Shown here: positions 2 to 20,821 of the stretch, piece after piece
Numbering within the stretch: position 1 is the stretch's first letter
Layout of the letters: each line of letters opens with the position of its first letter
From: a virus
Length of the DNA: 64,000 nt
Virus record (IMG/VR): IMGVR_UViG_3300031951_000096
Location: 1-64,000 of that record
Direction: 5' to 3' (one strand)
Program-made: the position numbers and the translations under genes
The notes under the pieces: model-generated
Told to the model about the DNA's origin: nothing
Databases searched by the model: none
Seen by the model: only the letters and a program-made list of their open reading frames with translations

Positions 2-337
2 GGAGATGATATAAGGGCCATATTTGATAATAAAGATTACTCCGAAGCAGGAAGGAGAAAGAACATAGAACTTGCTCAACGAATGGCTAAGTTTTTTCAC
101 CACAAAGGTAATGTGGCAATTGTCTCATTAGTTTCTCCTTATAGAGACCAAAGAGAAGCATTTAAAACCGAAATGGGTGAGAATATAAAAGAATTATATG
201 TTCATACTACCGATATAAGGGGTAGAGAATCGTTTCACGTTTCTAACTACGAACCGCCGTTGAAAAACTTTATAGATGTAGATACGACAGATGAGGATGA
301 GTTTACAACATTTCAAAGATTAAAATCACTAATATGA
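2..337 (+). CDS. cysC: Adenylylsulfate kinase (APS kinase), 5' truncated by window edge
   Basis: The frame is open from base 2 and matches the C-terminal two thirds of APS kinase. It reads GDDIRAIF, then SEAGRRKNI, then VSLVSPYRDQR, which correspond to the family blocks DGDNxR, SxxDRxENIRR and ISPYRxxR. The enzyme phosphorylates APS to PAPS, the sulfuryl donor for sulfotransferases, and two sulfotransferase genes lie downstream (5070 and 9007). The Walker A end is outside the window. An internal ATG at 83 would start too late and remove conserved blocks, so it is not the start. The protein ends in KSLI, the tail shared across this cluster. The stop codon overlaps the next ATG (ATGA). Family call is secure; activity cannot be judged without the N-terminus. 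Confidence 0.88.
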   Translation, partial: GDDIRAIFDNKDYSEAGRRKNIELAQRMAKFFHHKGNVAIVSLVSPYRDQREAFKTEMGENIKELYVHTTDIRGRESFHVSNYEPPLKNFIDVDTTDEDEFTTFQRLKSLI

Positions 338-741
338 AAAAATATGCAATGTTTATTGGAAGGTGGCAGACTTGGCACGCCGGACACGAATGGTTAATCC
401 GCCAACAATTGGATAAAGGGAAAGATGTTTGGGTAGCAATTAGAGATGTTCCGAAAGATGAGAACAATCCTAAGTCTGCTCATCAGGTTTTAATGGATTT
501 GTGTAAAGAACCTTTTTTTGTAGAAAACTCAAAGAAAATATACATAAGTGTGATACCAGATATCGAATCGGTAAACTATGGTAGAGCAGTTGGATATGAG
601 GTAATATATCATACTCCTCCGAAAGAAATCGAAGCCATAAGCGGAACTGCGATTAGAAAAAAATACATCGATTCTAACGGTGATGTAATTGTTTATAATA
701 TAGATAACGATGATAGTAGAGAGAAAGAGGCACATAGCTAA
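334..741 (+). CDS. HxGH nucleotidyltransferase (cytidylyltransferase-like fold)
   Basis: This 135-aa protein has the nucleotide-binding HxGH motif (H15-A-G-H18, within GRWQTWHAGH) and a C-terminal ISGTAIR block at residues 102-108. Both are hallmarks of the adenylyl/cytidylyltransferase superfamily, for example NMN adenylyltransferase, which transfers NMP from an NTP to a phosphorylated substrate. Its position between APS kinase and DUF2061 suggests a role in nucleotide or sulfate activation, but it lacks the sequence of classical ATP sulfurylase, so the substrate is open. The start overlaps the cysC stop by 4 bases, implying translational coupling. It does not carry the shared KSLI-type tail. 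Confidence 0.75.
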   Translation: MKKYAMFIGRWQTWHAGHEWLIRQQLDKGKDVWVAIRDVPKDENNPKSAHQVLMDLCKEPFFVENSKKIYISVIPDIESVNYGRAVGYEVIYHTPPKEIEAISGTAIRKKYIDSNGDVIVYNIDNDDSREKEAHS

Positions 742-925
742 AACTATATCATATCGAATAGTTTCAACTCTAATAGGGTTTGGTATTATGTGGTGGGTAA
801 GTGGCTCAATTAAAGTTGGTGCAGCATTTGGTGTAGCAGAATTAATCTATAAACCTATTCAGTATTATCTTCACGAAAGAGTTTGGTATAAGTGGATAAA
901 GTTTGGCCTTAAAAAGGATAATTAA
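710..925 (+). CDS. DUF2061 small membrane protein
   Basis: This 71-aa protein fits the DUF2061 family: a basic start (ERKRHIAKTISYR), a hydrophobic segment at about residues 15-30, a second at about 33-48, and a Tyr/Trp-rich end (HERVWYKWIKFG). It should sit in the inner membrane as a two-helix hairpin. Its molecular function is unknown. From memory, DUF2061 genes in bacteria are often next to sulfate-activation genes, which fits the adjacent cysC, but I cannot verify this here. The start lies 32 bases inside the preceding gene, so expression is probably coupled. Confidence 0.75.
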   Translation: MIVERKRHIAKTISYRIVSTLIGFGIMWWVSGSIKVGAAFGVAELIYKPIQYYLHERVWYKWIKFGLKKDN

Positions 926-926
926 T

Positions 927-1550
927 ATGAAACCTAGCATTTACATTTGCGGTGATAGTTTTGTAGATTGGGATATGCCTGAAACTCATTGGACTAATTA
1001 TTTATCCAATCACTACAATGTTATTAAGTTAGGAAAATTTGGCGCGGATAATCATTCTATTCTTTATCAAACAGGTTTAATTCCAAAATACGAATATGGT
1101 GATAGATTAGTGATTGTATTTAGTGCACCAGGTAGATTTCCAAGAAGATTTTTTGGGGAAAGAGAAACACATCATCATATAAAATATTTTAATTGGGAAT
1201 GGTATAAAGATAAACAATTTGCAAAAAAATTATTAGAAGTTAGATTATCCGAAACATCACATTGGTTAAATGGTGAAAGAAATAATGAAATACTATTTTT
1301 AAAAAAACTTAAAGAGTTGTATAATGATTTTTCTCCGGTATTTGTGACCTGGAATGAAGATTTTCATAAGATGACTTCTGATTTTGTTGAGTTGATTCAG
1401 GTTACTTCGATTGCAGATGAAGGAGGTGATCCTATGGATTGGCATCCTGGTTGGAAAGGTTGCTATGAATTTTATAAAAAAATGCATACCTTTTTAGATA
1501 TAAAAGATGATTTAGTGGCCTTTCAATCTAAAACAAATAAAATAATATGA
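927..1550 (+). CDS. SGNH/GDSL-like protein
   Basis: This 207-aa protein begins with a strand followed by GDSFVDW (block I of the SGNH hydrolase fold, nucleophile Ser in G-D-S). Near the C-terminus it has DWHPGWKG, where the D-x-H pair expected in block V can be seen. Such enzymes remove acyl groups from sugars or lipids. I chose the ATG at 927 because it directly follows the stop of the previous gene; the upstream in-frame start at 903 would overlap it and places extra residues before the GDS strand. The protein ends NKII. Four more SGNH-like genes occur in the window (10354, 25703, 46796, 47634). Substrate unknown. Confidence 0.65.
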   Translation: MKPSIYICGDSFVDWDMPETHWTNYLSNHYNVIKLGKFGADNHSILYQTGLIPKYEYGDRLVIVFSAPGRFPRRFFGERETHHHIKYFNWEWYKDKQFAKKLLEVRLSETSHWLNGERNNEILFLKKLKELYNDFSPVFVTWNEDFHKMTSDFVELIQVTSIADEGGDPMDWHPGWKGCYEFYKKMHTFLDIKDDLVAFQSKTNKII

Positions 1551-2065
1551 AATTATTGTTAGATGATTTTTTGTATTTAAAATCTCAATTGGAAATAACT
1601 CCATTGATGAATGATGATGAAATTAAGTTCGTAAAATCTGCACATTCTCAACTTTATTCCACATATATTGGAGAAAAAGGGGATGATGTGGCTCTTATTA
1701 CCGAAAATTCTATAATATATTCATTAAAAAACAAAAATCTTAACAACTTTTTATGTGAGAAATTAGAAGAACCCATTGAGTATTTGTATATGATACATAA
1801 ACACATCTATGGTGTAGGTGATTTTGCGAAAAAACATAAAGATAGATATGCAACACATAAAACGGTAAGTATAATTTTATCAGATGAATTTGAGGGAGGG
1901 GATATGTATGTAAATGATAAAAAGATACAATTAAATACAAACGGTGAATATGTAAGTTTCTTTGGTGGTAATGATTTTCATGAAGTAAAGCCGATTACAA
2001 AAGGAAATCGAGAGGTATTAATTGTTTGGTTTTCAAAAAAACAATCAAAATTTTCTTTAATATGA
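1547..2065 (+). CDS. 2OG-Fe(II) oxygenase (prolyl-hydroxylase-like)
   Basis: This 172-aa protein has the double-stranded beta-helix pattern of 2-oxoglutarate/Fe(II) dioxygenases: H97-K-D99, then FEGGDMYV, distal H145 (FHEV) and R155 for 2OG binding. Known relatives hydroxylate prolyl or other residues, or small molecules. The N-terminal 70 residues are not recognisable. The start overlaps the SGNH gene stop (ATGA) and the protein ends FSLI, so it belongs to the coupled cluster. It is one of eight 2OG oxygenases in the window. The substrate cannot be predicted. Confidence 0.82.
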   Translation: MKLLLDDFLYLKSQLEITPLMNDDEIKFVKSAHSQLYSTYIGEKGDDVALITENSIIYSLKNKNLNNFLCEKLEEPIEYLYMIHKHIYGVGDFAKKHKDRYATHKTVSIILSDEFEGGDMYVNDKKIQLNTNGEYVSFFGGNDFHEVKPITKGNREVLIVWFSKKQSKFSLI

Positions 2066-2619
2066 TTGGTAAATTTAAAGTTTTCGAAAATGTATTCTCT
2101 AAAGAAGAATGTAATCAGATACTTAATAAGTGTGTAAATGAATCGGTTTTAAAAATAGCGGAAGTGTATGATAGTAAATTAATGAATAATGTTATTGATG
2201 TTAGTAAAAGAAAATCTAAAGTTGCGGGAATCGATTTGGAAGAACTTAATGATAGAATTATTAAAAAGCTAAAAGAATACTTTGGTATAAAAGGATACAA
2301 TTTCAAAATTTCAAACTATCAATTTACTAAATACCAAAATGGAGATTATTTTAATTGGCACACCGATTCTTCAGATGATGTATATAATCAACGAATTTTA
2401 ACAATTGTAATTCAACTTAACGATGAATATGAAGGAGGTGAATTAGAGTTAGAAATTGATGGTAAGGTATATTCGTTAAAAAAAGGAATAGGTAATTTAT
2501 TTGCATTTTCATCTTTAACTAAACATAGAATTAAAGAAATTAAAAATGGAGTTAGGTATTCAATTGTTAATTGGTTGGAATTAGAAACACAAAAAAATTA
2601 TAAGAAAACATTATTATAA
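2062..2619 (+). CDS. 2OG-Fe(II) oxygenase (PKHD/prolyl 4-hydroxylase-like)
   Basis: This 185-aa protein has a complete facial triad and 2OG site: H100-T-D102, H155 and R165, with the family block NDEYEGGELEL between them. The start at 2062 overlaps the previous stop (ATGA); a longer start at 2026 is possible but would run inside the upstream gene. It is a clear paralogue of the oxygenase at 4501, sharing NKYxxGDFxxWHxDS and IQLNDxYxGGE patterns. It ends KKTLL. The gene after it (2619) is the halogenase, sharing one base, so the two are probably translated together and may act on the same product. Confidence 0.85.
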   Translation: MIGKFKVFENVFSKEECNQILNKCVNESVLKIAEVYDSKLMNNVIDVSKRKSKVAGIDLEELNDRIIKKLKEYFGIKGYNFKISNYQFTKYQNGDYFNWHTDSSDDVYNQRILTIVIQLNDEYEGGELELEIDGKVYSLKKGIGNLFAFSSLTKHRIKEIKNGVRYSIVNWLELETQKNYKKTLL

Positions 2620-3860
2620 TGAAAAAAATAATCATAATCGGAGGTGGGACTGCTGGATGGCTTACTGCTCTAATAGTAAATAAATTTTGGGAAAATACAA
2701 ATGTAACATTGGTAGAAAGTTCCAAAATAGGAATACTAGGAGCGGGCGAAGGAAGCACACCAAACTTCGGTAGAATTTTATCATTATTAGGTATAAATCA
2801 AAAAGATTTTTATGAAAAAACAGGTGCTACAAATAAGCGTGGGCTAAACTTAATAAATTGGCTTGGAGATGGTAGCACAGCAAAACATTTATTTACAGGT
2901 GAAGAGCCAACTGTTTTTACAAAATCATTTGGTTATCATTTTGATGCAAGAAAAGTTGCAGATTACTTTAAACAAATAGCAATAGATAGGGGTGTTAATT
3001 GGATTGATGGGGAAATAGAAACAATTAATAATACAGGTGAGTTTATTAAAAGTTTCAAATTAGTAGATGATAGAATAATTAGTTCTGATTTTGTTTTTGA
3101 CTGTAGTGGATTTAATAGATTAGTTGGAAATCTATTTAATGAGGAATGGGTTGATTATTCAAAATATTTAATGATTAATAGTAGCATTGCATTTTTCCTA
3201 CCTCAAAATAAAAAACTTACAATTAAAGATAAGACATATACAAATATGGTTGCTATGAGTTGTGGGTGGATGTGGCAAATTGAACTACAACACAGATGGG
3301 GATGTGGCTATTCTTTTAATAAAGATTATATAACAGTAGAAGATGCGAAAAAAGAAGTTGAAGACTATTTAGGGCATGAAATAGAAATTCAAAAAGTGTT
3401 TAGTTATAATCCAGGTAGATATAAAAGAAGTTGGATTGGTAACTCTATATCAATAGGATTATCATATGGGTTTATAGAACCATTAGAAGCAACATCGTTG
3501 ATGTCGACTATTATGCAACTTAAAAGATTGGTTGATAAAAACTTTGATGAAAATTATAAAGATGGGTTCAATAAATGGTGTGAAGAAATTAATGAGCAAA
3601 ATATGATGTTTGTTAGATACCACTATTTAGCGGAAAGATTGGATAACAAATTTTGGATTGATGCATATAATAAACCAATTCCAAAAAAATTGAAACAAAT
3701 ACTAGATAAAGATAACAACATTATTATCAAAAACGATAGAGATTTATTGAAATCCTTTGATTTAGTAGAAACTCCACAAAATATGTTGACATTCTTTACA
3801 CACAATTATCAAACTATTTTTAGAAAAAATAAAAAAGTATTAAAAAAAGAATTAATTTAA
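2619..3860 (+). CDS. Flavin-dependent tryptophan-halogenase family protein
   Basis: This 413-aa protein has the full set of signatures of the tryptophan-halogenase family: GGGTAGW at residues 8-14 (FAD binding), GAGEGST at 41-47, the conserved lysine K73 that forms the haloamine, the W-x-W-x-I box (W217, W219, I221) and FIEPLEATS around E290. These enzymes use FADH2 and O2 to make hypohalous acid and halogenate electron-rich aromatics. The protein is shorter than the roughly 500-540 residues of PrnA/RebH, as seen for phage halogenases such as VirX1 of a cyanophage, which iodinates varied small aromatics. The box has Glu where most have Pro (WxWxIE). No flavin reductase is visible nearby, so a host one would be needed. 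Ends KKELI. Confidence 0.9.
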   Translation: MKKIIIIGGGTAGWLTALIVNKFWENTNVTLVESSKIGILGAGEGSTPNFGRILSLLGINQKDFYEKTGATNKRGLNLINWLGDGSTAKHLFTGEEPTVFTKSFGYHFDARKVADYFKQIAIDRGVNWIDGEIETINNTGEFIKSFKLVDDRIISSDFVFDCSGFNRLVGNLFNEEWVDYSKYLMINSSIAFFLPQNKKLTIKDKTYTNMVAMSCGWMWQIELQHRWGCGYSFNKDYITVEDAKKEVEDYLGHEIEIQKVFSYNPGRYKRSWIGNSISIGLSYGFIEPLEATSLMSTIMQLKRLVDKNFDENYKDGFNKWCEEINEQNMMFVRYHYLAERLDNKFWIDAYNKPIPKKLKQILDKDNNIIIKNDRDLLKSFDLVETPQNMLTFFTHNYQTIFRKNKKVLKKELI

Positions 3861-4501
3861 TGGAAAAGTTATATTTTAATGATACCACTTTTATTTGGAA
3901 AACAAAACTAAATAAATTAACCGATAAATCATTATTTCTAAAAGAAGCCTATTCAGTTATTGACTCTCAACCTGGTGTCAAAACTGATGGATTTGGATAT
4001 AAAAAGGAATGGAATAATAATTTAAATTTTATAGGTAAAATTGAGATTAAAAGTAAATTAGATGAAGTTATTCAAAATGGCATAGATTTATGTAAAGAAC
4101 TTTACACTACAAATAACTTACCTTTTAATAAAATTAATATTGATGCTTGGGTAAATGTAGTTAGATCTATAGATCCAATTCAACCAAACTTTTACGATGA
4201 TAATCAAAAGTTTCATATTCATACTGAAATCAATAAAAAAACAAAATCATTTCCACCATCCTATACCTATGTTTATTATATTCAAATGCCAGATGTAATG
4301 AATGGAGAAGATGGTGTATTATATTTTAAAGGTAAAGATGGTCAAGAGTATTGGATTAGACCTGAAGAGGATGATTTAATCATAATGGAAGCAGATATGC
4401 CTCATTCTCCAAACAACGCTCCTAATTCAACTATTGATAGAATAGTATTAGCGGGGAATGTTGGGTTTGAATATATTAAAAAAGAAAAATCAATAATATA
4501 A
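3860..4501 (+). CDS. 2OG-Fe(II) oxygenase-like protein (2OG-FeII_Oxy_5 type)
   Basis: This 213-aa protein resembles the phage 2OG oxygenase subfamily common in marine T4-like phages. It has an N-terminal WxxxL region and INIDAWVNV, then H119-I-H121-T-E123 as the likely metal motif, MPHSP with H182, and DRIVLAGN with R194 for 2OG. The metal acid is Glu rather than Asp if H121/E123 is used. It shares one base with the halogenase stop, suggesting coupled translation. It ends EKSII. Cupin-type proteins are the main alternative, but the spacing favours an oxygenase. Confidence 0.72.
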   Translation: MEKLYFNDTTFIWKTKLNKLTDKSLFLKEAYSVIDSQPGVKTDGFGYKKEWNNNLNFIGKIEIKSKLDEVIQNGIDLCKELYTTNNLPFNKINIDAWVNVVRSIDPIQPNFYDDNQKFHIHTEINKKTKSFPPSYTYVYYIQMPDVMNGEDGVLYFKGKDGQEYWIRPEEDDLIIMEADMPHSPNNAPNSTIDRIVLAGNVGFEYIKKEKSII

Positions 4502-5070
4502 TGTTTGTAAGCTATATTGAAAATTTTTTAAACGAAGATGAATGTATTTCTTTAATTAATTTGGGCAATTCAATTGATTTAATCCAAATGAAATCTTCAA
4601 AATTTGTCAATGGAGAATTAGTTGGTGAAAACCTGGAATATGCAGGTAATAAAAGATTAGGGTGTTATTTTCTCAATGAACAACTTGATTTACCTATTGT
4701 AAAAAGCCTGACAAATAAAATTATTAATTTATCAAATAATTTAAATCCATTTAAAGGAATAGAATACAGCTATATTAAAAAATACTCTTTTAACAAATAT
4801 GGTGTAGGAGATTTTTTAGATTGGCATTCTGACAGTCATGAAATACTAAATGGAGCTACGATTACATTTATAATTCAACTAAATGATGATTATGATGGAG
4901 GTGAAATACAATATAATATAGATAATAACATTTATACGATTAATAAGAAAATAGGTAGCGTTTTTATATTTGATTCTAATATAAGTCACTCTGTCAAAAA
5001 GATAGAAAATAGAAATAGGTATTCCTTAAATGTTTGGCCATCTAAAAATGTTACCAAATCACTATTATAA
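4501..5070 (+). CDS. 2OG-Fe(II) oxygenase, paralogue of the 2062 gene
   Basis: This 189-aa protein has H109-S-D111, the block NDDYDGGEIQY, H163 (ISHSV) and R173 (RYSLNVW). It aligns over most of its length with the oxygenase at 2062, including the N-terminal FLNEDEC / FSKEEC region, so the two probably arose by duplication with divergence toward different substrates or positions. It shares one base with the previous stop and with the next start, and ends TKSLL. Confidence 0.85.
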   Translation: MFVSYIENFLNEDECISLINLGNSIDLIQMKSSKFVNGELVGENLEYAGNKRLGCYFLNEQLDLPIVKSLTNKIINLSNNLNPFKGIEYSYIKKYSFNKYGVGDFLDWHSDSHEILNGATITFIIQLNDDYDGGEIQYNIDNNIYTINKKIGSVFIFDSNISHSVKKIENRNRYSLNVWPSKNVTKSLL

Positions 5071-5858
5071 TGCTAGTAGATAATAAGTTTATATATTTAA
5101 GTTTACCGAGATGTGCATCTACTTCGTTTCACTATTCTTGTATTATAAATAATATTGGCGTAAAAACTAATAATGGTGAATGGGAAGTATCAAATGAACA
5201 TATTGATTTTAATTCAATTGAAAAAGAAGATTTAATGAATCATATATTTCATGGACATGAAACCATTTCAGATTTACAATCTAAATTTGGTATTGATGTT
5301 CCTGTGATAGCGGTTAATAGAGAAAGACATGAGCGTTTCTATTCATTCTACAAACATATGTTATCCGATTTTAAACGATTGGGTTATTTAGATTTTTATG
5401 ATACGTTTTCCCATTTTACTTTGAATGAATTATTTTTTTTCACAAAAGATGATTTAATTAGCAAAAAGACGAGATGGGATAAAATTTCAGATTATCTAAT
5501 TGAATTAAAATTAATTAACCAACCGGTCGATATTAACGTAACTTTATCAAGTAGAAAAAACGAAGAAAATTATTGGAAAGAAAAGAATGGTTATCTGGTT
5601 AATCTAATTGATATCCTATTAACTCCGATTTCTTTTTGGACAAATCATAACCCAAATATAATATGGTTTGAATTTGATAAACTGCAAGATTTAGATAAAT
5701 GGGTATCTGATAAAACTAAAAAACCATTTAAAATACAATATGTAAATTCTAGTAAAAATATAAAAACAAATCTACCATTAGATGACAATTTTGTTGTCAA
5801 ATATAATAGTATTTATGATTACTATGATTTACATAAAACAACTAAAACCTTAATATAA
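5070..5858 (+). CDS. Sulfotransferase-family protein (PAPS-dependent)
   Basis: This 262-aa protein opens with FIYLSLPRCASTSFH (residues 7-21), the 5'-phosphosulfate-binding loop with the P-R-x-x-S-T-S arrangement. VIAVNRERHERFYSFY (79-94) matches the 3'-phosphate-binding block, usually R-x-P-x-x-R-x-x-S-x-Y/F. Such enzymes move the sulfuryl group of PAPS to a hydroxyl or amine of a sugar, tyrosine or small molecule. APS kinase in the same gene run supplies PAPS. The R-x-P of the usual motif is R-E-R here, so substrate or efficiency may differ. The protein ends TKTLI. Confidence 0.78.
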   Translation: MLVDNKFIYLSLPRCASTSFHYSCIINNIGVKTNNGEWEVSNEHIDFNSIEKEDLMNHIFHGHETISDLQSKFGIDVPVIAVNRERHERFYSFYKHMLSDFKRLGYLDFYDTFSHFTLNELFFFTKDDLISKKTRWDKISDYLIELKLINQPVDINVTLSSRKNEENYWKEKNGYLVNLIDILLTPISFWTNHNPNIIWFEFDKLQDLDKWVSDKTKKPFKIQYVNSSKNIKTNLPLDDNFVVKYNSIYDYYDLHKTTKTLI

Positions 5859-5859
5859 A

Positions 5860-6489
5860 ATGCTTTATTCCGACAAAATATATGAAGTTTTTGACGATTT
5901 GCTATCAGTAGATGAGCAAAAAATCTTATATAACTATGCGAACAATAGTGAGATTAAATGGAATGAAACAGAGAATATAACAGGAAATTACGGTGGTAAA
6001 AAAAATACACATAAATTTCCTGCAAAAGTTCATCCTCAAATCGACTGTAAGAACGAACAAATAGATGAGCTAATTAAGAATATACAACGTATTATATCCA
6101 AAAAAATAGGATTAGAATTTGTAACCACTTACAGATGGAAAATTAACCATACATCTCCGTTAAATTATGAGTATAACCCAATTGATTTATTACACTATGA
6201 TAGAATAGCAGAACATATTGCTGCAGTATATTATATTAATGATATAGATGGTGATACGTGTATTTATCGTAATAAATTTGGAGATAACGCAGAGACGTAT
6301 ATGGAAAATTTTGATAATGTAAATTTAGATTCTTTTGAACTATTGACTAAAATTTCTCCAAAAATGGGAAGATGTTTAGTTTTTGATGGGAGATATGCAC
6401 ATCACGCAAATTATCCAACTAAAGGTAGTAGATATATACTTAATTTAAATTTTGTTGCAAAACCCCTAAAAACAAATTCTTTATTATAG
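5860..6489 (+). CDS. 2OG-Fe(II) oxygenase
   Basis: This 209-aa protein has H112-Y-D114 after a long N-terminal half, a strand AAVYYINDIDGDTCIY, H181/H182 (YAHHANYP) and R191 (GSRYILNLNF). This is the HxD...H...R layout of the superfamily, closest in style to phage and hypothetical 2OG proteins that act on unknown acceptors. Between the two metal motifs there is an insertion of about 30 residues (ETYMENFDNV region), not present in the shorter paralogues at 2062 and 4501. It starts one base after the sulfotransferase stop and ends TNSLL. Confidence 0.8.
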   Translation: MLYSDKIYEVFDDLLSVDEQKILYNYANNSEIKWNETENITGNYGGKKNTHKFPAKVHPQIDCKNEQIDELIKNIQRIISKKIGLEFVTTYRWKINHTSPLNYEYNPIDLLHYDRIAEHIAAVYYINDIDGDTCIYRNKFGDNAETYMENFDNVNLDSFELLTKISPKMGRCLVFDGRYAHHANYPTKGSRYILNLNFVAKPLKTNSLL

Positions 6490-6498
6490 TTAATTATT

Positions 6499-6804
6499 AT
6501 GAAAATAAATGGTATTAAATACGATTATAAAGAAATTTTTAATGCATGGATAACTGCCAGAAACCCATCTGATGATGAGAAAAAATTAGCAGAAAGAAGG
6601 TATTCTATTTGTTCAAAATGTGAATTAAAAAAATCCGTCATAAAAAATCAAAAGTGGTCTGAATATTGTAAAGGGTGTGGCTGCCCCCTTAATAAAAAAA
6701 TATTTACTAAAATTTATAATAGCTGTCCACTCCTAAAATGGGAAGAGTGTGATAATGGGTTTATTGAAAAGATAGAGGATAAGCGTGAAAAATCAATAAT
6801 TTAA
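6499..6804 (+). CDS. Small Cys-rich zinc-ribbon-like protein
   Basis: This 101-aa protein has C38-x2-C41 and C57-x2-C60-x-C62, followed by C76 (SCPLLKW) and C84. The two CxxC pairs suggest a zinc ribbon or knuckle that could bind zinc or act in protein contact. I recognise the pattern CSKCELKK...CKGCGCPLNKK from phage hypothetical proteins but know no function. It is the last gene before the only real gap in the first 8 kb and still ends EKSII, although 41 bases separate it from the next start. This shows that the tail is not simply a by-product of stop/start overlap. Confidence 0.7.
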   Translation: MKINGIKYDYKEIFNAWITARNPSDDEKKLAERRYSICSKCELKKSVIKNQKWSEYCKGCGCPLNKKIFTKIYNSCPLLKWEECDNGFIEKIEDKREKSII

Positions 6805-6812
6805 GTTTATAT

Positions 6813-6821
6813 ATATTTATA
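6813..6821 (+). promoter_or_regulatory. Candidate phage late promoter element (ATATTTATA)
   Basis: The only sizeable gap in the first 8 kb carries ATATTTATA 24 bases before the ATG of the ATP-grasp/Hint gene. The same core recurs before structural and other phage genes at 20619, 30809, 42671, 44640 and 46081, with variants at 27620, 37889 and 56886. It does not fit the host TAnnTTTG box. The gp55-like sigma factor encoded at 23292 is a plausible reader. Inference only. Confidence 0.5.
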
Positions 6822-6845
6822 GTTGAAAAAAGATAATTGTAACAA

Positions 6846-8339
6846 ATGAAAGCAATAATATTGGGTTCAGATTTATTGGAATACAATAATGATGTAAAAA
6901 TTTTAGAGATAAATACAAATACAACCATTTATAATCCTGGAGCTGAACTATTGGAATATGATGGGTTATTTGATATGTTAGTTCAGAATAACATATCAGA
7001 ATTTCATTTTATATATACTGAAAGAGATTCCCATTCACCATCTAATGAAAGATATCGATTTAAGGAAAAATTAGTTCAAAAATGTAATGAAAATAACATT
7101 TCTTTTAATGAATACATCGTTCCTTTTAATTCTGTTACGGTACCATATATAGAAGATTCTCCTACTAAATTTATATTAAGACAATCGTATGATACGACAG
7201 CATTGATTGATGACTCGTATTGTGCTGATAAATTTGGATTCTGTGAACTGATGAGCGGTAGCCAATATATACCAAAAACTTATTTTAGTTCATCTGAAGT
7301 TAGTATGGATACATTAAATAATGTTAGTTTTCAAACCAATGGAACACCAAATGTTATAGTAAAAGCACAGGCTCCTAGCTATGATACTGCATTATATCCA
7401 TCAATATATTCATTAGAATCACAATCTCAATTAGATTCATTAAAATCATCGAATACTTCGGAATACCTTATACAAGAATTTTTATATTCAACTGATAATT
7501 TAGTGGATAATAAATATTCTATAATAAGAAGCATTGATGTTATATATGGTAGTAATTTGGAAGTAATCAGTATGGGTGGATATAAGCAATCCACTGTAAT
7601 ACCAATTGATTTTATAGCTAATGAATTTACTGCTGATAGAAAATTAATTCAAAAGAGTAGACAGAAATACATCACAAAGGAAGTTGGTGTGAATCAAAAA
7701 ATTGAAAGTTATCACACCGATATGGACTCTAAAATTATTAATTATACGGGTTCAATTATTAATGCAAGTGATTTACAGATCGGAGATTATATTCGTTCAA
7801 TAGATTTTGTAGATTATAACGATAATCACGCTGCTAATTTTGAAGAAGGTAAATTAAATGTATTTGGATGGAGTGGTAGTTTATCAAAATCCAATGAAAC
7901 CTTACTTCAAACATCATCATCTTTACAAGGAATTATTTCTTCATCAATAGATACAATTTATATAAGGGTAACGACAGCTGATGGTAAAAGTTGGGTAGAT
8001 TCTCCATCGTGTACATACTATATTGAAGAATCCGGCTCAACATCAACAAGATTTGAAAAACTAAACCAAATGTATATTGGTGATAAATTAGTTGTAACCG
8101 ATTCTAATACACAACAATTATCGACATTAGAAATAACTAATTTAGAAATGGAACACGCTCAAATGATGGTTTACGGATTGGATTTCGAGCCATCCGACCT
8201 TTTTTTGGTTGATATCGGAGATGATGTTTTTTCAGTAATGCACAATAGTTGTTATTGTCCGTGGTCATATTGTGGAAACTATTGTTATGACAACACCTGT
8301 TCGGGTTGTGGCGGAGGCGGCCAACCCCCTAAACTTTAA
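6846..8339 (+). CDS. ATP-grasp-like protein with Hint-like C-terminal block and Cys-rich tail
   Basis: This 497-aa protein looks composite. Residues about 105-255 resemble an ATP-grasp ligase: KFILRQSYDTTA, NVIVKAQAP, EYLIQEFL (Q210-E211) and SIIRSIDVIYG. Residues about 300-467 resemble a Hint/intein-type fold: NASDLQIGDYIRSID, MYIGDKLVV, then VYGLDFEPSDLFLV...VMHNSC, similar to intein blocks F and G (VYDLxVE...FxV...VHN-C/S), with H466-N467. I see no block A nucleophile. After HN comes a 30-residue tail (468-497) with six Cys (469, 471, 476, 480, 485, 488), one Trp, three Tyr and a GCGGGG run, ending QPPKL. If the HN site cleaves, a Cys-rich peptide would be freed. The gene has its own late-type promoter motif. 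Domain calls are by eye. Confidence 0.6.
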   Translation: MKAIILGSDLLEYNNDVKILEINTNTTIYNPGAELLEYDGLFDMLVQNNISEFHFIYTERDSHSPSNERYRFKEKLVQKCNENNISFNEYIVPFNSVTVPYIEDSPTKFILRQSYDTTALIDDSYCADKFGFCELMSGSQYIPKTYFSSSEVSMDTLNNVSFQTNGTPNVIVKAQAPSYDTALYPSIYSLESQSQLDSLKSSNTSEYLIQEFLYSTDNLVDNKYSIIRSIDVIYGSNLEVISMGGYKQSTVIPIDFIANEFTADRKLIQKSRQKYITKEVGVNQKIESYHTDMDSKIINYTGSIINASDLQIGDYIRSIDFVDYNDNHAANFEEGKLNVFGWSGSLSKSNETLLQTSSSLQGIISSSIDTIYIRVTTADGKSWVDSPSCTYYIEESGSTSTRFEKLNQMYIGDKLVVTDSNTQQLSTLEITNLEMEHAQMMVYGLDFEPSDLFLVDIGDDVFSVMHNSCYCPWSYCGNYCYDNTCSGCGGGGQPPKL

Positions 8340-8351
8340 AATAATTTAATT

Positions 8352-8489
8352 ATGTCAGATATAAGAATTAATAGACCGATTCAAACGATTAAGCCAAGTA
8401 TTGTAGCTTTATCTAATGATACTAAAGTAAAAGTAAATGCTGCTATTCAAACGGTAGTTAATAAAATTAAAGATAGACATCTAAGTTAA
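8352..8489 (+). CDS. 45-aa protein of unknown function
   Basis: An ATG at 8352 opens 45 codons ending at TAA 8487-8489, filling the space between the ATP-grasp/Hint gene and the next oxygenase, which starts two bases later. It reads MSDIRINRPIQTIKPS at the N-terminus and ends in a basic helix-like stretch (VVNKIKDRHLS). Its placement beside a ligase-like gene within a set of tailoring enzymes makes a small acceptor or precursor peptide thinkable, but it lacks Cys, Trp and Tyr, so it is a poor substrate for halogenation or Tyr sulfation. It does not carry the shared KSLI-type tail. No recognised family. Confidence 0.6.
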   Translation: MSDIRINRPIQTIKPSIVALSNDTKVKVNAAIQTVVNKIKDRHLS

Positions 8490-8491
8490 AT

Positions 8492-9010
8492 ATGTTATAT
8501 CAATCAATCTTATTTTCACAAGAGGAATGTGAATATATTATTGACTTAAAATATAAGTATCCTCTGTTGGGTGATAATGGTAGATGGGATATATTCGATA
8601 ATTTCAAATATAAATTTTATGCACTAGAATTTATAGATGATATAAATTGGATTATAAATAGAATGTGTGATTTTTTTGAAAATGAAACTAAATTAAAAAT
8701 CCATACCCGACCTACAAAATTAAATTTACATCATTATACCATAGGTGATGAATTTGGTAAGCACATAGATACTGGATCACCTTTAAAAGAATGGAATGTA
8801 GGTATTGTTCTTAACGAAAATTTTATGGGAGGGGATTATCTCATTTTTGATGAAAACGATAATCCTATTTATATAAATAAAAAAATTGGTAATGTATGCA
8901 TATATCAATCACAGACACCTCATCAAGTTACTCCCATAACAAGTGGTGAAAGATGGGCGATTGCTATGTTTTTGCATAAATTTAGAATGCAAGAAAAATC
9001 AATTTTATGA
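8492..9010 (+). CDS. 2OG-Fe(II) oxygenase
   Basis: This 172-aa protein has H91-I-D93, FMGGDYLIFDE, H144 (TPHQV) and R154 (GERWAIAMF), a complete 2OG oxygenase active site. The N-terminal FSQEECEYIIDL matches the start of the paralogues at 2062 and 4501 (FSKEEC, FLNEDEC), so it has the same helical entry segment. It is the first recognisable enzyme after the ATP-grasp/Hint gene and the 45-aa protein, which makes those products candidate substrates. It ends EKSIL and overlaps the sulfotransferase start by 4 bases. Confidence 0.84.
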   Translation: MLYQSILFSQEECEYIIDLKYKYPLLGDNGRWDIFDNFKYKFYALEFIDDINWIINRMCDFFENETKLKIHTRPTKLNLHHYTIGDEFGKHIDTGSPLKEWNVGIVLNENFMGGDYLIFDENDNPIYINKKIGNVCIYQSQTPHQVTPITSGERWAIAMFLHKFRMQEKSIL

Positions 9011-9666
9011 AAATTTTAGTTTTGGCTACTCCTAGAAGTGGTTCTACCTCTTTAACTAAATTAATAAATGCACATTTAAATCCGGATTATTCCCTTTTTA
9101 TAGAACCATTTAATCCAAACTTTTATCAATTGTATAAAAACAAAGGATTCGATTTTCAAACTATTATACCATTGCAAAATTGTAATAATCTATTAGTAAA
9201 AACATTACTATTAGTTGAAAATAATGAGTATCCTTTAAAATCTTTTAATAGTTCGAATTCATATTTCGATTGGTGTATATCATTTTTCGATAAAATAATT
9301 TTATTGGATAGAATTGATAAATTAGCACAATCTGAAAGTTTTGCTTTTAATGAAACTATGTTTAGAAAATACGGCATAGATTGGCATACTCCAAAAAAAT
9401 ACAATATAGCAGAAATAGATTCTTTATATATTCAAAATATGGTAGATAGATATACGGCATCCGCTAAATTACTATCTAGTATATCAATCAAATGTGAACA
9501 ACCCATTTTTTATTATGAAGATATATTCGAATCCTATAAAAAGGGTGAGATAGAAAAAATATTTAATTATTTGGAAATAAACTTAATAGATTCATATTAT
9601 AATGAATTTATATTATCTGAAACTAAAAAGGTTAGAATACAAAATACTTTAAATAAGATTATATAA
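9007..9666 (+). CDS. Sulfotransferase-family protein (P-loop TPRSGSTSL type)
   Basis: This 219-aa protein starts with ILVLATPRSGSTSL (residues 3-16), the 5'-phosphosulfate-binding P-loop seen in carbohydrate and Stf0-like sulfotransferases. ILLDRIDKLAQSESF follows at about residues 98-112, where the 3'-phosphate-binding Arg/Ser are expected (R-x5-S). It is clearly different from the sulfotransferase at 5070, so two acceptors or two positions are likely. PAPS would come from the APS kinase at the window start. The protein ends LNKII and its stop shares one base with the next ATG. Confidence 0.82.
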   Translation: MKILVLATPRSGSTSLTKLINAHLNPDYSLFIEPFNPNFYQLYKNKGFDFQTIIPLQNCNNLLVKTLLLVENNEYPLKSFNSSNSYFDWCISFFDKIILLDRIDKLAQSESFAFNETMFRKYGIDWHTPKKYNIAEIDSLYIQNMVDRYTASAKLLSSISIKCEQPIFYYEDIFESYKKGEIEKIFNYLEINLIDSYYNEFILSETKKVRIQNTLNKII

Positions 9667-10352
9667 TGTTTTGTTTTTGCTTTCTTGCATACGGCGATGA
9701 ACATATTAATGAATTTAATATAGTTGCAAAATCTATATTGGATTTAGATAAGGATTTTAAAATAATAGTCGGAACTGATTCTCCTTCAAAAATTATCGAA
9801 GGTGTTTATAGGGTTATAAAATTATCGGAATCATTTAATTACAATTTAAAAAGAATTGTTATTGGGGAGGCTTTGACTGAATTTGATACACTATTTTTTT
9901 TAGATACAGATACATTTATCAAAAGTGATGCGGATTTTTTTATACTGAATCATATAGATGAAGGATTTCATGCATCGAAAATAGTTGGATTGGATGAATT
10001 GAGAGATGTATATGGATCGTTGGAATATATGAAAGATTATTTATCTATTCTTACTACCGTAACCGATGATGCTTTAGAATTGATACATGAAGGTAAATTT
10101 GTTTTGCATATAAAAGATAATGATAAAAAACGTAGTTTTATTCAATGGTGGGAAAAGATTGATAGGCAAACTAGACCTTATCAAAAATTGGCTTACGATT
10201 TACCTGGTGCTATGGAGGGTATTATAATATGGATTGCTGTTAAAAAATCTATGATTGATTTAAAAATTGTAGATAGTGAGCTTAAAACATTATTTGAATC
10301 AATTAAACACTTTGGAAAAGCTAATATAAAACTCAAAAAATCATTGATTTAA
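9666..10352 (+). CDS. Glycosyltransferase-like protein (GT8/DxD type)
   Basis: This 228-aa protein shows a GT-A pattern: an N-terminal strand FCFLAYGDEHI, FKIIVGTDSP, then FDTLFFLDTDTFI with a D80-T-D82 metal/nucleotide-sugar motif. Near the end, AYDLPGAMEGIIIW resembles the acceptor-side region of small GT8-like enzymes. It would transfer a sugar from an NDP-sugar in the cytoplasm. The protein is somewhat shorter than typical GT8 enzymes. It ends KKSLI. The neighbouring RmlC-like gene (11210) suggests that deoxysugar chemistry may be involved. Confidence 0.65.
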   Translation: MFCFCFLAYGDEHINEFNIVAKSILDLDKDFKIIVGTDSPSKIIEGVYRVIKLSESFNYNLKRIVIGEALTEFDTLFFLDTDTFIKSDADFFILNHIDEGFHASKIVGLDELRDVYGSLEYMKDYLSILTTVTDDALELIHEGKFVLHIKDNDKKRSFIQWWEKIDRQTRPYQKLAYDLPGAMEGIIIWIAVKKSMIDLKIVDSELKTLFESIKHFGKANIKLKKSLI

Positions 10353-10353
10353 T

Positions 10354-11205
10354 ATGGAATATTTAACAAATAAAATTCTAAAATACAGATGTGAATTAGA
10401 TGATTTAAATTTAAAACCGAATGAAACTTATGAATATATACCAACTGATTCAAAGGAATTTTGGGATAGGCATATTATTTCAGAACTGGATAAACCCAGT
10501 ATTCAATATTACGAATTAAATCCAATAGAATACAAACTAAATAATGCTGGATTTAGAACTCCGGATGATTTTAATTCATATGATGAAGGTGATGTTTATT
10601 TAGGGTGTTCTCATACATTTGGAATAGGTCATCATTTAGAAAATGTATGGTCTTATAAATTAAGTAAAATATTAGGTCGTAAATTTTGGAATTTGGGAAT
10701 AGGGGGTACAGGAACGGATACCCATTTTAGATTATTATTTGCTTTTTATAAAGAACTTAAAATAAAAAATATATTCCATTATGCGCCATTGTATCCTCGA
10801 TATGAATTTATTGAAAATGGAAGACCTCACTGGTATATTATCGCGAACTATAATAAAAATTGGGAATCTAAATTTGGTAATCTAATGAAAGAGTCTCTTT
10901 TAACTAATGAGCAAGTTGAATTAAATTGGCATAAAAACACTTCGGCGATAAGAGGGTTGGCAAGTGAAATTGGAGCAAATTATTATGTAATTGAAGGTAG
11001 TAGAGGATGGCATGGTAGAGACGATGAATCACTTTTAGCAAGAGATTTATTACATCATACCACAAAATACCATCATTCGGTATATCAAGATTTTTTAAAG
11101 TTATACGATGATAATTTGTATTCTACTTTTAAAGATGTGAATGAACCAATAATGAACATTAAAAAATATATGAAAGATAATTATACTAAAAGTAAGTTAA
11201 TTTAA
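10354..11205 (+). CDS. SGNH-like hydrolase-fold protein
   Basis: This 283-aa protein has VYLGCSHTFGIG at residues 81-92, a variant of SGNH block I with Ser86 as possible nucleophile. NLGIGGTGTDT follows, matching block II/III Gly and Asn/Thr positions, and a C-terminal ARDLLHHTTKYHH provides the D-x-x-H type residues of block V. Such GCSxTxG proteins are frequent in phages and of unknown substrate; O-acyl sugar hydrolysis is the usual idea. The first 60 residues (YEYIPTDSKEFW) are a separate N-terminal region. The protein ends SKLI, the last clear member of the shared-tail set. Confidence 0.6.
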   Translation: MEYLTNKILKYRCELDDLNLKPNETYEYIPTDSKEFWDRHIISELDKPSIQYYELNPIEYKLNNAGFRTPDDFNSYDEGDVYLGCSHTFGIGHHLENVWSYKLSKILGRKFWNLGIGGTGTDTHFRLLFAFYKELKIKNIFHYAPLYPRYEFIENGRPHWYIIANYNKNWESKFGNLMKESLLTNEQVELNWHKNTSAIRGLASEIGANYYVIEGSRGWHGRDDESLLARDLLHHTTKYHHSVYQDFLKLYDDNLYSTFKDVNEPIMNIKKYMKDNYTKSKLI

Positions 11206-14393: not shown

Positions 14394-14775
14394 GGGGGTG
14401 CCTGGTTTTGACAGGTACGATGAGTTGGTGAATTGCAAGCCGGGTTAGATGGAAATCCGTAAATACCTATCGAACAATAAATGACGTAGAATTATCTACA
14501 ATGACCTTCGAAGATGCTATGGCATTCGTTGGTGCTGATTACGCTGTAGCAGCCTAATCAAACAATAGAGCCGGACTACATACGCTTAGTAACAGAAGTA
14601 GTTATAAAGGTGAAAAAGTGATTGAACCCAAAATCGAATCACCCATTGTTTATCGGTTGCCGATGGTGAAGAACCAACCGAATATTTTGTTTGTTAAGAA
14701 AAACAAACTAAGCTTGTGAACGATGTTTATTAAATCCGTATTTGGACGAGGGTTCGACTCCCTCCACCTCCACCA
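14394..14775 (+). ncRNA. ssrA: tmRNA (transfer-messenger RNA)
   Basis: The 5' end GGGGGTG pairs with CACCTCC just before ACCA at 14772-14775, giving a seven-pair acceptor stem with one G-U and an encoded CCA. The T-arm block GGTTCGACTCC lies at 14751-14761. The 5' segment (TGGTTTTGACAGG) is the tmRNA D-loop-like region. A reading frame ends in codons for GADYAVAA followed by TAA at 14555-14557, the usual Y-A-[LVM]-A-A degradation tag end. In E. coli the resume codon is about nt 90; position 90 here is the GAC at 14483, which would give a 24-residue tag, longer than usual. tmRNA with SmpB frees stalled ribosomes. The gene is in the one-piece form. Confidence 0.93.
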
Positions 14776-14777: not shown

Positions 14778-15743
14778 TTAATATGGATCAAAGTAGGGAG
14801 TAAACGGTCTCTCTACTCCATCTAAATTCATCCTTATAATTTGAGGATGATTTCTTATATTATCAATAATGTTTAGTTTATCATCATTCGTTAATATAGA
14901 TTGAGATTTAATATCGAATATAGGGCAGTATCCTAATCGAAGGCTTTTATCATCTGGTGTTCTATCGAATTTAGCAAGTTTTTCTCTCATACCAAACGAT
15001 TCAACCATTCCTTCGTGAGTTCTATCATACAAAGAAAATTGTAAATCGAATTCACCACTTAATAATCGGTGTTCGGATATGTTAGTAGGATCTATATGGT
15101 CATCATCATCGATACAAACTTCTTGCCACGTTTTTCCTAATTGTGCATAATGTAAATAACCTCTACCAAATGCACCATCTAATGTAAACCATTCATCAGC
15201 CTCTTTTGGTAATTCTACTTTTTGTATTGGAGCAAGTCCGTTCATAAATGTAGTGCAAATAGTTGCATCTCCTCCCATATTCCACTCTTCAATTTCATGC
15301 GAAAGGTCATTTAATCCTCTAACCGCATCTACTAATTTCCAATCCTTCTTTTCAATTATTCTTTGCCAGTATTCGGATGGTTTCCAAACTTGTCCAATTA
15401 GGGTTTCGAAATGATGATGTATAATGTTATGAACCTCCATAGGGTAATCTTCAGTAATCATATCACTTTCTATAATATGATAATCGAACCAATCGGAGTT
15501 ATTAATTGCTTCAACGCATCTTTTTAATTTTTCAACAAGAATTTTTGGATTACGGCTAGGTAGTTTAAATGCGGCCCATCGTGTTTCTAATTTCCATGTC
15601 GAATCGGATAATAAATCTTTTAATTTATCAAACCACAATTCCGCAATAAGATGCTGTTGAACTTCAAATGATAAGGAGTATTCGGAAACTAATTTTTTAT
15701 CATTATCAAATTGTCCGAAATCTATCTTAAATACTTTTTTCAT
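14778..15743 (-). CDS. Conserved-looking protein of unknown function
   Basis: This 321-aa protein is one of only two minus-strand genes in the window and converges on the tmRNA, its stop lying two bases from the tmRNA 3' CCA. It starts MKKVFKIDFGQFDNDKK and is acidic and Trp-rich, with a His-rich segment (NIIHHHFETLIG) and a cluster CIDDDDHID. I see no transmembrane segment, signal peptide or catalytic signature I can name. The divergent neighbour at 15792 is a 2OG oxygenase, with 48 AT-rich bases between the two starts that probably hold promoters for both. Function unknown; it is real by length and codon use. Confidence 0.7.
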   Translation of the reverse strand: MKKVFKIDFGQFDNDKKLVSEYSLSFEVQQHLIAELWFDKLKDLLSDSTWKLETRWAAFKLPSRNPKILVEKLKRCVEAINNSDWFDYHIIESDMITEDYPMEVHNIIHHHFETLIGQVWKPSEYWQRIIEKKDWKLVDAVRGLNDLSHEIEEWNMGGDATICTTFMNGLAPIQKVELPKEADEWFTLDGAFGRGYLHYAQLGKTWQEVCIDDDDHIDPTNISEHRLLSGEFDLQFSLYDRTHEGMVESFGMREKLAKFDRTPDDKSLRLGYCPIFDIKSQSILTNDDKLNIIDNIRNHPQIIRMNLDGVERPFTPYFDPY

Positions 15744-15791
15744 AACCCTATTAATAAAACCTTTTATATCTATAAGTATATATATAATTCT

Positions 15792-16502
15792 ATGGAAAAA
15801 CCCTTCTATGAATTCGATTTGGCATCAGAATCCGATTTAATAAATGAATTGGAAACATTACATTCCTTTTGCAGTGATACATCAAATTATAATAAAGTGA
15901 TTTTAAGAGGGCCAGAAAGAGAGGGATTTAATAATACAATAAGAGAGTTTGATTCGTTTTCAACCCTTTCCGATGAATATAATGAAATAGAAAAATGGAT
16001 AAGCGAGAATGATTTTAACATAGGACAATTTTCATTATATGGTAAAACTATTGATTGGAGAGATTACCCCCTAATTTACAAATACATAGTATCAAAAGTT
16101 TTCGAAATTTATGGAAACGATATAATTGTTCGTAAATTAGATGATACAAAATTTAGCATCAAAAAATTTACTTTATCGGAGGGATTATTAACTATGTATA
16201 AAAAGAGCGGGAGGCTATCACCTCATAAAGATGGTAAACCTGCTATTCCAAAAGATTTTACTAAATTAGCAAACATCTTACTATACCTTAATAAAGATTA
16301 TAAAAAGAGATGTGGCGGTTGTTTTGTTGTAAATGGAAAAGAATTGCCACCAGATTATGGTAAATTGGTATTTTTAAATTTTAGAGGTGATAGTGATCCG
16401 GAGCATTCAGTTTCTTTACTAAAATGTGATGTAAACCGAATAGCACTTTTATTTAATATAACTTATATGAATGCTGAAAAAATAATTTGGAATAACGAAT
16501 AA
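15792..16502 (+). CDS. 2OG-Fe(II) oxygenase
   Basis: This 236-aa protein has LSPHKDGKP with H145-K-D147, a strand ANILLYLNKDY, CGGCFVVNGK, then H205 (PEHSV) and R216 (VNRIALLFNITY), the complete metal and 2OG set. The start at 15792 is preferred to one at 15711, because the longer form would overlap the divergent gene and adds a segment with no resemblance to the family. It stands apart from the main cluster, has no KSLI-type tail (ends IIWNNE) and may have a different role, for example acting on nucleic acid or a different protein. Confidence 0.8.
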   Translation: MEKPFYEFDLASESDLINELETLHSFCSDTSNYNKVILRGPEREGFNNTIREFDSFSTLSDEYNEIEKWISENDFNIGQFSLYGKTIDWRDYPLIYKYIVSKVFEIYGNDIIVRKLDDTKFSIKKFTLSEGLLTMYKKSGRLSPHKDGKPAIPKDFTKLANILLYLNKDYKKRCGGCFVVNGKELPPDYGKLVFLNFRGDSDPEHSVSLLKCDVNRIALLFNITYMNAEKIIWNNE

Positions 16503-19397: not shown

Positions 19398-20051
19398 ATG
19401 AATAGACACACAAATGAAGAGTTAGAAAGTAACTATCGAAAGTTCCTAGGAATAATCGATAAATACATCACAGGAGAAAGGAAAGAAAAACTTCTCAAAA
19501 TGTATTCGATGGAAGAATTGGGACCTAACCTAATGTTATCACCAGCGAGTGGTAATAAGAATTTCCATTATGCGTATGAAGGTGGTTACATTGACCACAT
19601 ATTTAATGTTTGTAAGCATTCTTTAAAAATGAAAAATCTTTTTACTGAATGTGGTGGAACAGTTGATTTTACAGATGAAGAATTAATTTTTGCAGCATTG
19701 CATCACGATTTAGGTAAGTTGGGTATTAAGGGTGAATTACATTATATAGCCAACGATTCTGATTGGCATATTAAGAATAAGGGTGAATACTTTAAAAGAA
19801 ACGAAGCAATTCCATTTATGAGTATTACTGATAGAGGATTTTTTACTCTTTCTCAATATGGTATTACCTATTCTGATAAAGAATGGTTTGGTATTAAATT
19901 AACAGACGGAGTTTATGATGAAGATAATGAAAAGTATTACAAAGTTTATGATACTTCAAAATACCTTCGTTATACCATTCAGTATATTCTACATTGGGCA
20001 GACCATATGAGTACTGTTATTGAAAGACAACAAGGGTTGAGAGTATTTTAA
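19398..20051 (+). CDS. HD-domain phosphohydrolase
   Basis: This 217-aa protein has the HD superfamily metal residues: YIDHIFNVCKHS (first His), ALHHDLGKLG (HD pair) and ILHWADHMST (late Asp). Many phage HD proteins hydrolyse nucleotides or cyclic nucleotides, or remove 5'-nucleotide phosphates. Similar T4-like phage proteins are annotated only as HD hydrolases, and the substrate here is unknown. It is transcribed from its own host-type promoter. Confidence 0.78.
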   Translation: MNRHTNEELESNYRKFLGIIDKYITGERKEKLLKMYSMEELGPNLMLSPASGNKNFHYAYEGGYIDHIFNVCKHSLKMKNLFTECGGTVDFTDEELIFAALHHDLGKLGIKGELHYIANDSDWHIKNKGEYFKRNEAIPFMSITDRGFFTLSQYGITYSDKEWFGIKLTDGVYDEDNEKYYKVYDTSKYLRYTIQYILHWADHMSTVIERQQGLRVF

Positions 20052-20164
20052 TGACACTTTTTCTTTTTTGTTATATTGTGAATGTAATTTTGTCAGTATT
20101 TTGTAACAAAAGGGGTGGTGGTATAAGAATTGAATACTATAAGTAAACTTAAAAACTTAAAACT

Positions 20165-20557
20165 ATGTTCTATTCAGATTTCGACAGATTCGTTGACAAA
20201 TTAATGGTTGCAGACAAAACCCCGCTATGGGAAACTTATTCTCATACCTATGTTCCCTCAAAATTTGCGGTTGAGGTAAAAGATGATAAAGCATTTATTG
20301 CATTATCAGTTTTAGGGCATGACCCGAAAAACATTGAGATTAATTGTTATGAAGACAAAATAGAAGTAAAAGCAAAAAAAGGTGAAGATAAAACACCATT
20401 TACTGAATTAGTTGCTAACATCGATGAAAGAATTACTTTGGGTAAAGATTTAGATGGTAGAAGTGCTAAAGCAGAAGTTAAGAATGGTATCTTGACATTC
20501 ATTGTTGAAAGAAAAGAAGAATCTAAACCTAAAAAACTTTCATTAAAAGTTGGATAA
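20165..20557 (+). CDS. Small heat-shock protein (Hsp20/alpha-crystallin family)
   Basis: This 130-aa protein has an alpha-crystallin domain from about residue 35: SKFAVEVKDDKAFIALSVLGHDPKNIEI, EVKAKKGE and the beta-9 strand with AEVKNGILTFIVERKE, followed by a short C-terminal extension. It would hold unfolding proteins in the cytoplasm, perhaps helping assembly of the large tail proteins. Hsp20 genes are also a common part of T4-like cyanophage genomes. A terminator follows the gene. Confidence 0.88.
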   Translation: MFYSDFDRFVDKLMVADKTPLWETYSHTYVPSKFAVEVKDDKAFIALSVLGHDPKNIEINCYEDKIEVKAKKGEDKTPFTELVANIDERITLGKDLDGRSAKAEVKNGILTFIVERKEESKPKKLSLKVG

Positions 20558-20582
20558 TTAGATTTTTATTTCTATATTTAGT

Positions 20583-20610
20583 AAGGGAGGATTTATATCT
20601 TCCCTTTTTT
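20583..20610 (+). terminator. Rho-independent terminator
   Basis: AAGGGAGGA (20583-20591) pairs with TCTTCCCTT (20598-20606) with one G-T, around a six-base loop, followed by T residues. It closes the hsp20 transcript. Confidence 0.8.
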
Positions 20611-20618
20611 ATTAATAT

Positions 20619-20820: not shown

Positions 20821-20821
20821 A

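Follow-up and report, generated by a model that had tools for sequence, protein, structure and literature searches.

A shared C-terminal Leu/Ile tail on the enzymes of a phage gene cluster

The window analysed here is the first 64 kb (64,000 nucleotides) of the 79,696-base IMG/VR virus record IMGVR_UViG_3300031951_000096, with a GC content of 31%. It contains a cluster of enzyme genes (positions 927-11205; Table 1) in which 13 of 15 products end in two Leu/Ile residues ([LI][LI]-COOH), usually after K-[ST], and judging from the sequences this tail is almost certainly a real protein-level tag. In the rest of the record the same ending is found on 4 of 68 genes (Fisher p = 4e-10), and per-gene shuffling of the genes' own residues gives an expectation of 3.5%. 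The two cluster genes without a tail are a central gene encoding 497 amino acids (aa), here called the hub, and a 45-aa open reading frame (ORF).

The original prediction for this DNA had listed fourteen such C-termini, all of which are present as described; exact K-[ST]-[LI]-[LI] occurs in 8 of the 14, and their common core is [LI]-[LI]-COOH. Its gene list was right about the tails but lacked the 45-aa ORF and overlooked the central tailless gene, and we re-set the start codons of two genes (927 instead of 903, and 2062 instead of 2026). It had also counted as its fourteenth member an APS kinase gene (83-337) that ends KSLI. We rejected this gene as part of the system because homologues from other phages have the endings KLDL, RIDL or TLFL, and 1 of 22 has the strict tail; by this comparison its KSLI is probably a coincidence.

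Conservation of the tail in related viral loci

A search with the hub as query returned 124 relatives, from which 80 viral loci with 56 distinct hub copies were kept, and tails were profiled by gene index relative to the hub. Cluster genes at indices -5 to -1 and +2 to +5 were tailed in 402 of 443 cases (91%), with [LI][LI]-COOH at 87-100% for indices -5 to -1 and 76-94% for +2 to +5, compared with about 11% at index distances of 9 or more; internal [LI][LI] dipeptides occur at 2.7%. The cluster specificity of the tail, as first proposed for the window, is strongly supported. Tails were never found on the hub (0/56) or on the 45-aa ORF (0/46). Phages without the cluster had tails on 3 of 128 and 4 of 278 genes (1.7%), and across 22 other phage loci and similarly AT-rich genes of the cluster genomes the frequency was 1.7-11%. 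A 288-kb relative carries nearly all of its strict tails inside one 8-kb cluster, with 1 of about 370 genes outside it.

The 2-oxoglutarate (2OG) oxygenase at 4501-5070 keeps its tail in all 25 homologues on other viral contigs (53-100% identity), in the forms KSLI, KSII, KSLL, KTLI, ISLL, KSVI and NLL, and these homologues differ in codons (TCA, TCT, TCC, AGT, ACA), downstream genes and overlaps. Sixteen remote homologues (approximately 30% identity) have no tail and finish where the enzyme core does (...YSVVAWAL), which locates the tail beyond the core. All 43 distinct halogenases of the cluster end in [LI][LI], usually after K-E/K/N/Q; among relatives of the zinc-ribbon protein 48 of 51 end in [LI][LI]. 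The residue at position -3, counting the last residue as -1, depends on the family, being mostly E in the halogenases (22/43) and mostly K in the sulfotransferases at index +4, or ST(+4) (30/50). Across these loci, which belong to uncultivated phages of a widespread group, the tail looks like a common address or docking tag.

Selection on the protein rather than on the DNA

Identity was higher in the tail than in the linker preceding it in the sulfotransferases at index -2, or ST(-2) (0.72 versus 0.54), the zinc-ribbon family (0.54 versus 0.34), the halogenases (0.56 versus 0.41) and ST(+4) (0.52 versus 0.15). At synonymous sites, by contrast, the tail had diverged almost as far as the core. 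Untailed control families from the neighbourhood had an identity of 0.26-0.39 at the same C-terminal positions and showed no such C-terminal conservation. Homologues that are about 55% identical keep the tail while their linkers and codons have diverged, and the S/T position uses all ten Ser/Thr codons, TCN and AGY alike, in agreement with the earlier view that the pattern exists at the protein level. Random C-termini in close relatives, which the original prediction had named as a finding that would speak against it, were not observed; the tail is retained in close relatives.

In most cluster genes the end runs a few bases past the next start, the ends are AT-rich, and synonymous diversity (pS) is slightly lower in the tail (0.40-0.59) than in the core (approximately 0.65), as might be seen if a translation start or recombination site in overlapping gene ends gave rise to the tail as a side effect. 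The gap and codon data contradict such an effect of overlap or start signal. The zinc-ribbon gene, already singled out because it is tailed despite 41 bases to the next start, has that start more than 20 nucleotides (nt) away in 51 of 52 loci and carries the strict tail in 42 of these 51. Among cluster genes as a whole, 51 of 76 with a gap of more than 20 nt and 167 of 282 with a gap of 4 nt or less are tailed, as against 2 of 164 outer genes with a gap of 4 nt or less, so that the tail does not depend on the nearness of the next start codon. With codons varying freely, even between TCN and AGY, a DNA or RNA signal is very improbable. Composition, by which chance alone would place K, I and L at the ends of AT-rich genes, had been regarded as the main caveat, and K, I and L are indeed frequent at this GC content. 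Shuffling the residues of each gene nevertheless sets the 3.5% expected against 13 of 15 observed, and comparably AT-rich genes, including those of the same phage, are not tailed to the same extent (1.7-11%); the shuffling and these other genes contradict a composition effect, which we regard as having practically no chance of being correct. Conserved tails, free codons and independence of the gap together exclude overlap, start signal and composition as the main causes.

The hub and the adjacent small ORF

An AlphaFold2 model of the hub built from 15 sequences was poor, and one built from 53 sequences (predicted local distance difference test score 66) was usable for one part only, at residues approximately 285-467, which matched hedgehog and intein Hint domains in Foldseek (1at0, E 1e-7, and many inteins). 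The hub is accordingly modelled as containing a Hint fold. This domain ends in an invariant His-Asn and is followed by a peptide of the form C-[WY]-C-P-W-x-Y-C-G-x-[YWFH]-C-...-C-x-x-C, in which the Cys residues are invariant and the Trp residues nearly so. Read by eye from the alignments, the domain appears to begin ..YHTDDDS.., without Cys, and to have DAPSCTYYI as block B; since the splicing nucleophile and the TxxH block are apparently missing, the domain could plausibly perform no more than Asn-dependent C-terminal cleavage. The first 275 residues of the hub resemble ATP-grasp proteins, on the basis of a motif and of weak RimK profile matches in 5 of 32 homologues (best E 0.018).

Profile searches of the PDB with the hub and with its N-terminus gave no match, and relatives of the hub were found neither in GenBank phages nor in the bacterial genome collection. 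GenBank phages likewise yielded no relatives of the 2OG oxygenase at index -4, of ST(-2) or of the radical SAM proteins, and only remote, untailed relatives of the halogenase. In two remote hubs the part after HNK corresponds to an S74 intramolecular chaperone domain (L255:7632-9269) or to a second complete Hint/intein domain (L252:5242-7095), pointing to exchangeable C-terminal modules. In another locus with a divergent hub (L254) the clients end KGLF, NQLF, STLF, NTLM, KSFI and KILI; F occupies the last position in 1.3% of cases elsewhere (P for 3 of 6 = 4e-5, a post-hoc observation in one genome), and this shift to -LF, -LM and -FI would fit a shared, co-evolving reader. The ORF directly after the hub (45-50 aa) is present at index +1 in 46 loci with the consensus ERPxxxIKxxxxPxSxxLKxKxxxAFQxVVxxIKxKHL[SGN] and had no match in PHROGs.

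Enzymes that carry the tail

More than ten unrelated protein families are tailed. They comprise 2OG oxygenases of several subfamilies, flavin halogenases, two groups of sulfotransferases, SGNH, glycosyltransferase-like and zinc-ribbon proteins and, in related loci, radical SAM proteins, FkbM, CmcI and SET methyltransferases and a P-loop kinase; the ST(-2) and glycosyltransferase assignments were made by reading the sequence, with no Pfam match. Only two of the cluster loci have no halogenase. The cluster genomes also encode tailed proteins of similar enzyme kinds at other places, namely an epimerase-2OG fusion (IKKSLI), an SGNH-like protein (IKKSLL) and, in L149, a glycosyltransferase-like protein (TNKTIL), which shows that the tag is independent of operon position.

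Members of the same enzyme classes without a tail are found as well. One family (family 36) is tailed in 2 of 2 members inside the cluster and 0 of 3 outside, and the genome of the window itself encodes an untailed 2OG oxygenase (15711-16502) and, at 24021-26470, a carbamoyltransferase followed by an untailed SGNH protein (25703-26470) homologous to the tailed SGNH family of the cluster. The tail is absent from most halogenases of hub-less viral contigs and of bacterial genomes, among them 411-aa proteins of the same size that are approximately 44% identical (L256, L258). Structural and replication genes of the cluster genomes are rarely tailed.

Possible function of the tail

The function of the tail is probably docking or recruitment. 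The best explanation, which we consider reasonably likely, is a C-terminal docking tag that gathers protein-modifying enzymes on a common partner, perhaps the hub. The tail itself is a genuine short linear motif at the very C-terminus, approximately [KN]-[ST/K/E/N]-[LI]-[LI]-COOH, which many unrelated enzymes carry on a flexible linker; a hydrophobic pocket on one common partner would read its last two residues and the free carboxylate. Docking would thereby bring 2OG oxygenases, halogenase, sulfotransferases, the glycosyltransferase-like protein, SGNH proteins, methyltransferases and radical SAM proteins around one substrate, and the chemistry of these enzymes suits the modification of a protein or peptide. 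The hub is the best candidate for partner and/or substrate; together with the 45-aa peptide, which is likewise always present and never tailed, it is a natural candidate for the roles of reader and substrate, although we assign the reading of the tail to the hub only tentatively. The Cys-rich C-terminal peptide of the hub, lying after a Hint domain that ends in His-Asn, could be freed by Asn cyclisation. A more elaborate proposal, and in our opinion a rather unlikely one, is a self-contained protein-modification factory in which an ATP-grasp/Hint hub reads a universal C-terminal address and assembles an exchangeable set of tailoring enzymes, of more than ten kinds, which decorate a Cys/Trp/Tyr-rich peptide before the Hint domain releases it; new enzymes would join by gaining four to ten C-terminal residues, much as peroxisomal enzymes gain SKL.

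Several observations weigh against docking on the hub. The -3 residue differs between families, and the Hint domain begins without a Cys. The Cys-rich peptide is absent from the remote hubs L252 and L255, whose clients are tailed, so this peptide is not a universal substrate. The 74.6-kb record G010 has tailed enzymes of the same kinds and no detectable hub, and a 31-kb fragment (L013), also hub-less, contains two tailed 2OG-type genes; both records may be incomplete. G010 (L306-L309) encodes at least four tailed radical SAM proteins and dispersed tailed enzymes with a somewhat broader tail, and next to a tailed 2OG gene it has a small Hint-like ORF of 162 aa.

Tails in these two records would be accounted for if enzymes bound the tails of one another in pairwise or homotypic assembly, with no central hub. 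This arrangement would need a common pocket to have arisen separately many times in more than ten unrelated folds, and hub and tails are found together in nearly every record of sufficient length; we consider it improbable. A sorting tag that sends the enzymes to a place such as the virion interior, a replication compartment or the membrane, in the manner of peroxisomal targeting signal 1 (PTS1) or encapsulin cargo peptides, agrees with a short C-terminal element common to unrelated enzymes and found also on genes outside the cluster, and the S74 domain of one remote hub is typical of virion proteins. In these genomes, however, genes for structure and replication are seldom tailed, no compartment protein was identified, and the clients resemble one chemical pathway, which co-docking explains better, leaving sorting as an unlikely alternative. 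Non-polar C-termini are known protease signals, and a host tail-specific protease or an adaptor of the ClpXP type might read the tail and limit enzyme lifetime. Such a degron or stability tag would not explain why the need is restricted to this enzyme set, the conserved residues are bulky Leu/Ile rather than Ala-Ala, and the phage's own transfer-messenger RNA (tmRNA) tag ends in AVAA, a different signal; we give this reading as little credence as pairwise assembly.

Should the tail prove to be a docking address, it would be a very small portable module by which almost any enzyme could be recruited to a single viral pathway. The members of this pathway, itself not yet described but with a candidate for its substrate, would be recognisable in raw sequence. 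The tail would also offer a handle on the role of the 2OG oxygenases and halogenases that are abundant in environmental phages but still unexplained, and the tag could serve in building enzyme assemblies.

Comparison with known systems

The nearest precedent is the docking of non-ribosomal peptide synthetase and polyketide synthase (NRPS/PKS) subunits, in which a disordered C-terminal short linear motif of fewer than 15 residues, only the last five of which bind, pairs with a beta-hairpin domain to recruit partners in a biosynthetic pathway; such docking elements are also found on oxidases and halogenases (PMC9113145). In NRPS/PKS systems the motif is on few subunits, whereas in the phage cluster it is on almost every enzyme and there is no NRPS/PKS. 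Pfam scans of the cluster proteins identified no beta-hairpin docking domain, no HK97-fold encapsulin and no PDZ domain, the last without a search aimed at PDZ in the genomes or host.

PTS1 (SKL-COOH) is one short C-terminal tag carried by dozens of unrelated enzymes and resembles the tail of the phage enzymes in this respect, but it has another consensus and is eukaryotic, and in the phage no Pex5-like reader was recognised and no organelle is known. Encapsulin cargo-loading peptides are hydrophobic C-terminal peptides that follow a flexible linker on unrelated cargo; their motif differs, and the phage would have ten or more cargo families. A resemblance to class I PDZ ligands had been suggested for the window, and most tails fit formally (S/T at -3, I/L at -1), among them most of those in the 2OG, ST(-2) and zinc-ribbon families. 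Position -2 of the tails is also limited to L/I, and the S/T rule is broken by the halogenases (E/K/N/Q) and by one sulfotransferase family (mostly K).

Pathways for ribosomally synthesised and post-translationally modified peptides (RiPPs) use similar kinds of tailoring enzyme (radical SAM, halogenase, methyltransferase and 2OG). The phage hub has its Cys/Trp-rich C-terminal peptide on a longer protein, neither a classical short precursor nor a RiPP recognition element was recognised, and the leader would be ATP-grasp-like plus Hint, with modification putative; the hub C-terminal peptide and the 45-aa ORF are candidates for a RiPP-like precursor. Related halogenases and 2OG oxygenases are known from the marine cyanophages and pelagiphages P-SSM2, Syn10 and HTVC008M, which have no hub and no comparable tails (the 3 of 128 genes given above). 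We found no report in the open-access literature of one C-terminal tag marking nearly all enzymes of a phage cluster.

Gene content of the cluster and other features

Table 1. Genes of the tailed cluster in the window, with C-terminal residues and basis of assignment
Feature	Position	Strand	Tail	Remarks
SGNH-hydrolase-like	927-1550	+	TNKII	Tail codons 1536-1547; by sequence similarity, no Pfam match; relatives (e.g. L109) end NTNKLI
2OG-Fe(II) oxygenase	1547-2065	+	KFSLI	PF13640; relative L014 (56% identity) ends KFTLI
2OG-Fe(II) oxygenase	2062-2619	+	KKTLL	PF13640; relative L018 (40% identity) ends KKSLI, with AGT serine codon
Flavin-dependent (tryptophan-type) halogenase	2619-3860	+	KKELI	PF04820, E 3e-84
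2OG-Fe(II) oxygenase, index -4 family	3860-4501	+	EKSII	Weak PF13640; family tail KKEKS[LI]I; strict tail in 46/49
2OG-Fe(II) oxygenase	4501-5070	+	TKSLL	PF13640
Sulfotransferase-like, ST(-2) family	5070-5858	+	TKTLI	Inferred, no Pfam match; 64/64 family members end [LI][LI]
2OG-Fe(II) oxygenase	5860-6489	+	TNSLL	Weak PF13640; 7/7 family members end [LI][LI]
Cys-rich zinc-ribbon-like (95-101 aa family)	6499-6804	+	EKSII	Next start 41 bases on; phrog_13558, 5e-8
Hub, 497 aa	6846-8339	+	none	ATP-grasp-like N-terminus (~1-275), predicted Hint (~285-467) ending HN, Cys/Trp-rich C-terminal peptide
Conserved 45-50-aa ORF directly after hub	8352-8489	+	none	Mostly ends KHL[SGN]
2OG-Fe(II) oxygenase	8492-9010	+	EKSIL	PF13640, 6e-10
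Sulfotransferase, ST(+4) family	9007-9666	+	LNKII	PF00685, 1e-4; 50/50 family members end [LI][LI]
Glycosyltransferase-like	9666-10352	+	KKSLI	Inferred, no Pfam match
SGNH-like	10354-11205	+	KSKLI	Inferred, no Pfam match

A phage tmRNA gene was identified at 14394-14775 (+) of the window by ARAGORN and Rfam (RF00023); it encodes the tag DVELSTMTFEDAMAFVGADYAVAA, which differs from the KSLI tail. tmRNA genes are also present in L050, L053 and the 288-kb relative (L123). Bases 20001-40000 of this 288-kb record (L124 of G006) contain 25 tRNA genes, one of them called with a 4-base anticodon (gtga). Two genes of L021 (5299-6597 and 7158-7718) encode lipoprotein-like N-termini (LFTACSKD), which suggest that the host of these phages belongs to the Bacteroidota. 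The motif ATTTGG(AAAT), noted by eye, recurs in intergenic regions of many related loci (e.g. L003, L009 and L014), where it lies close behind one gene and ahead of the start of the next, and is possibly a phage promoter or start-site motif.

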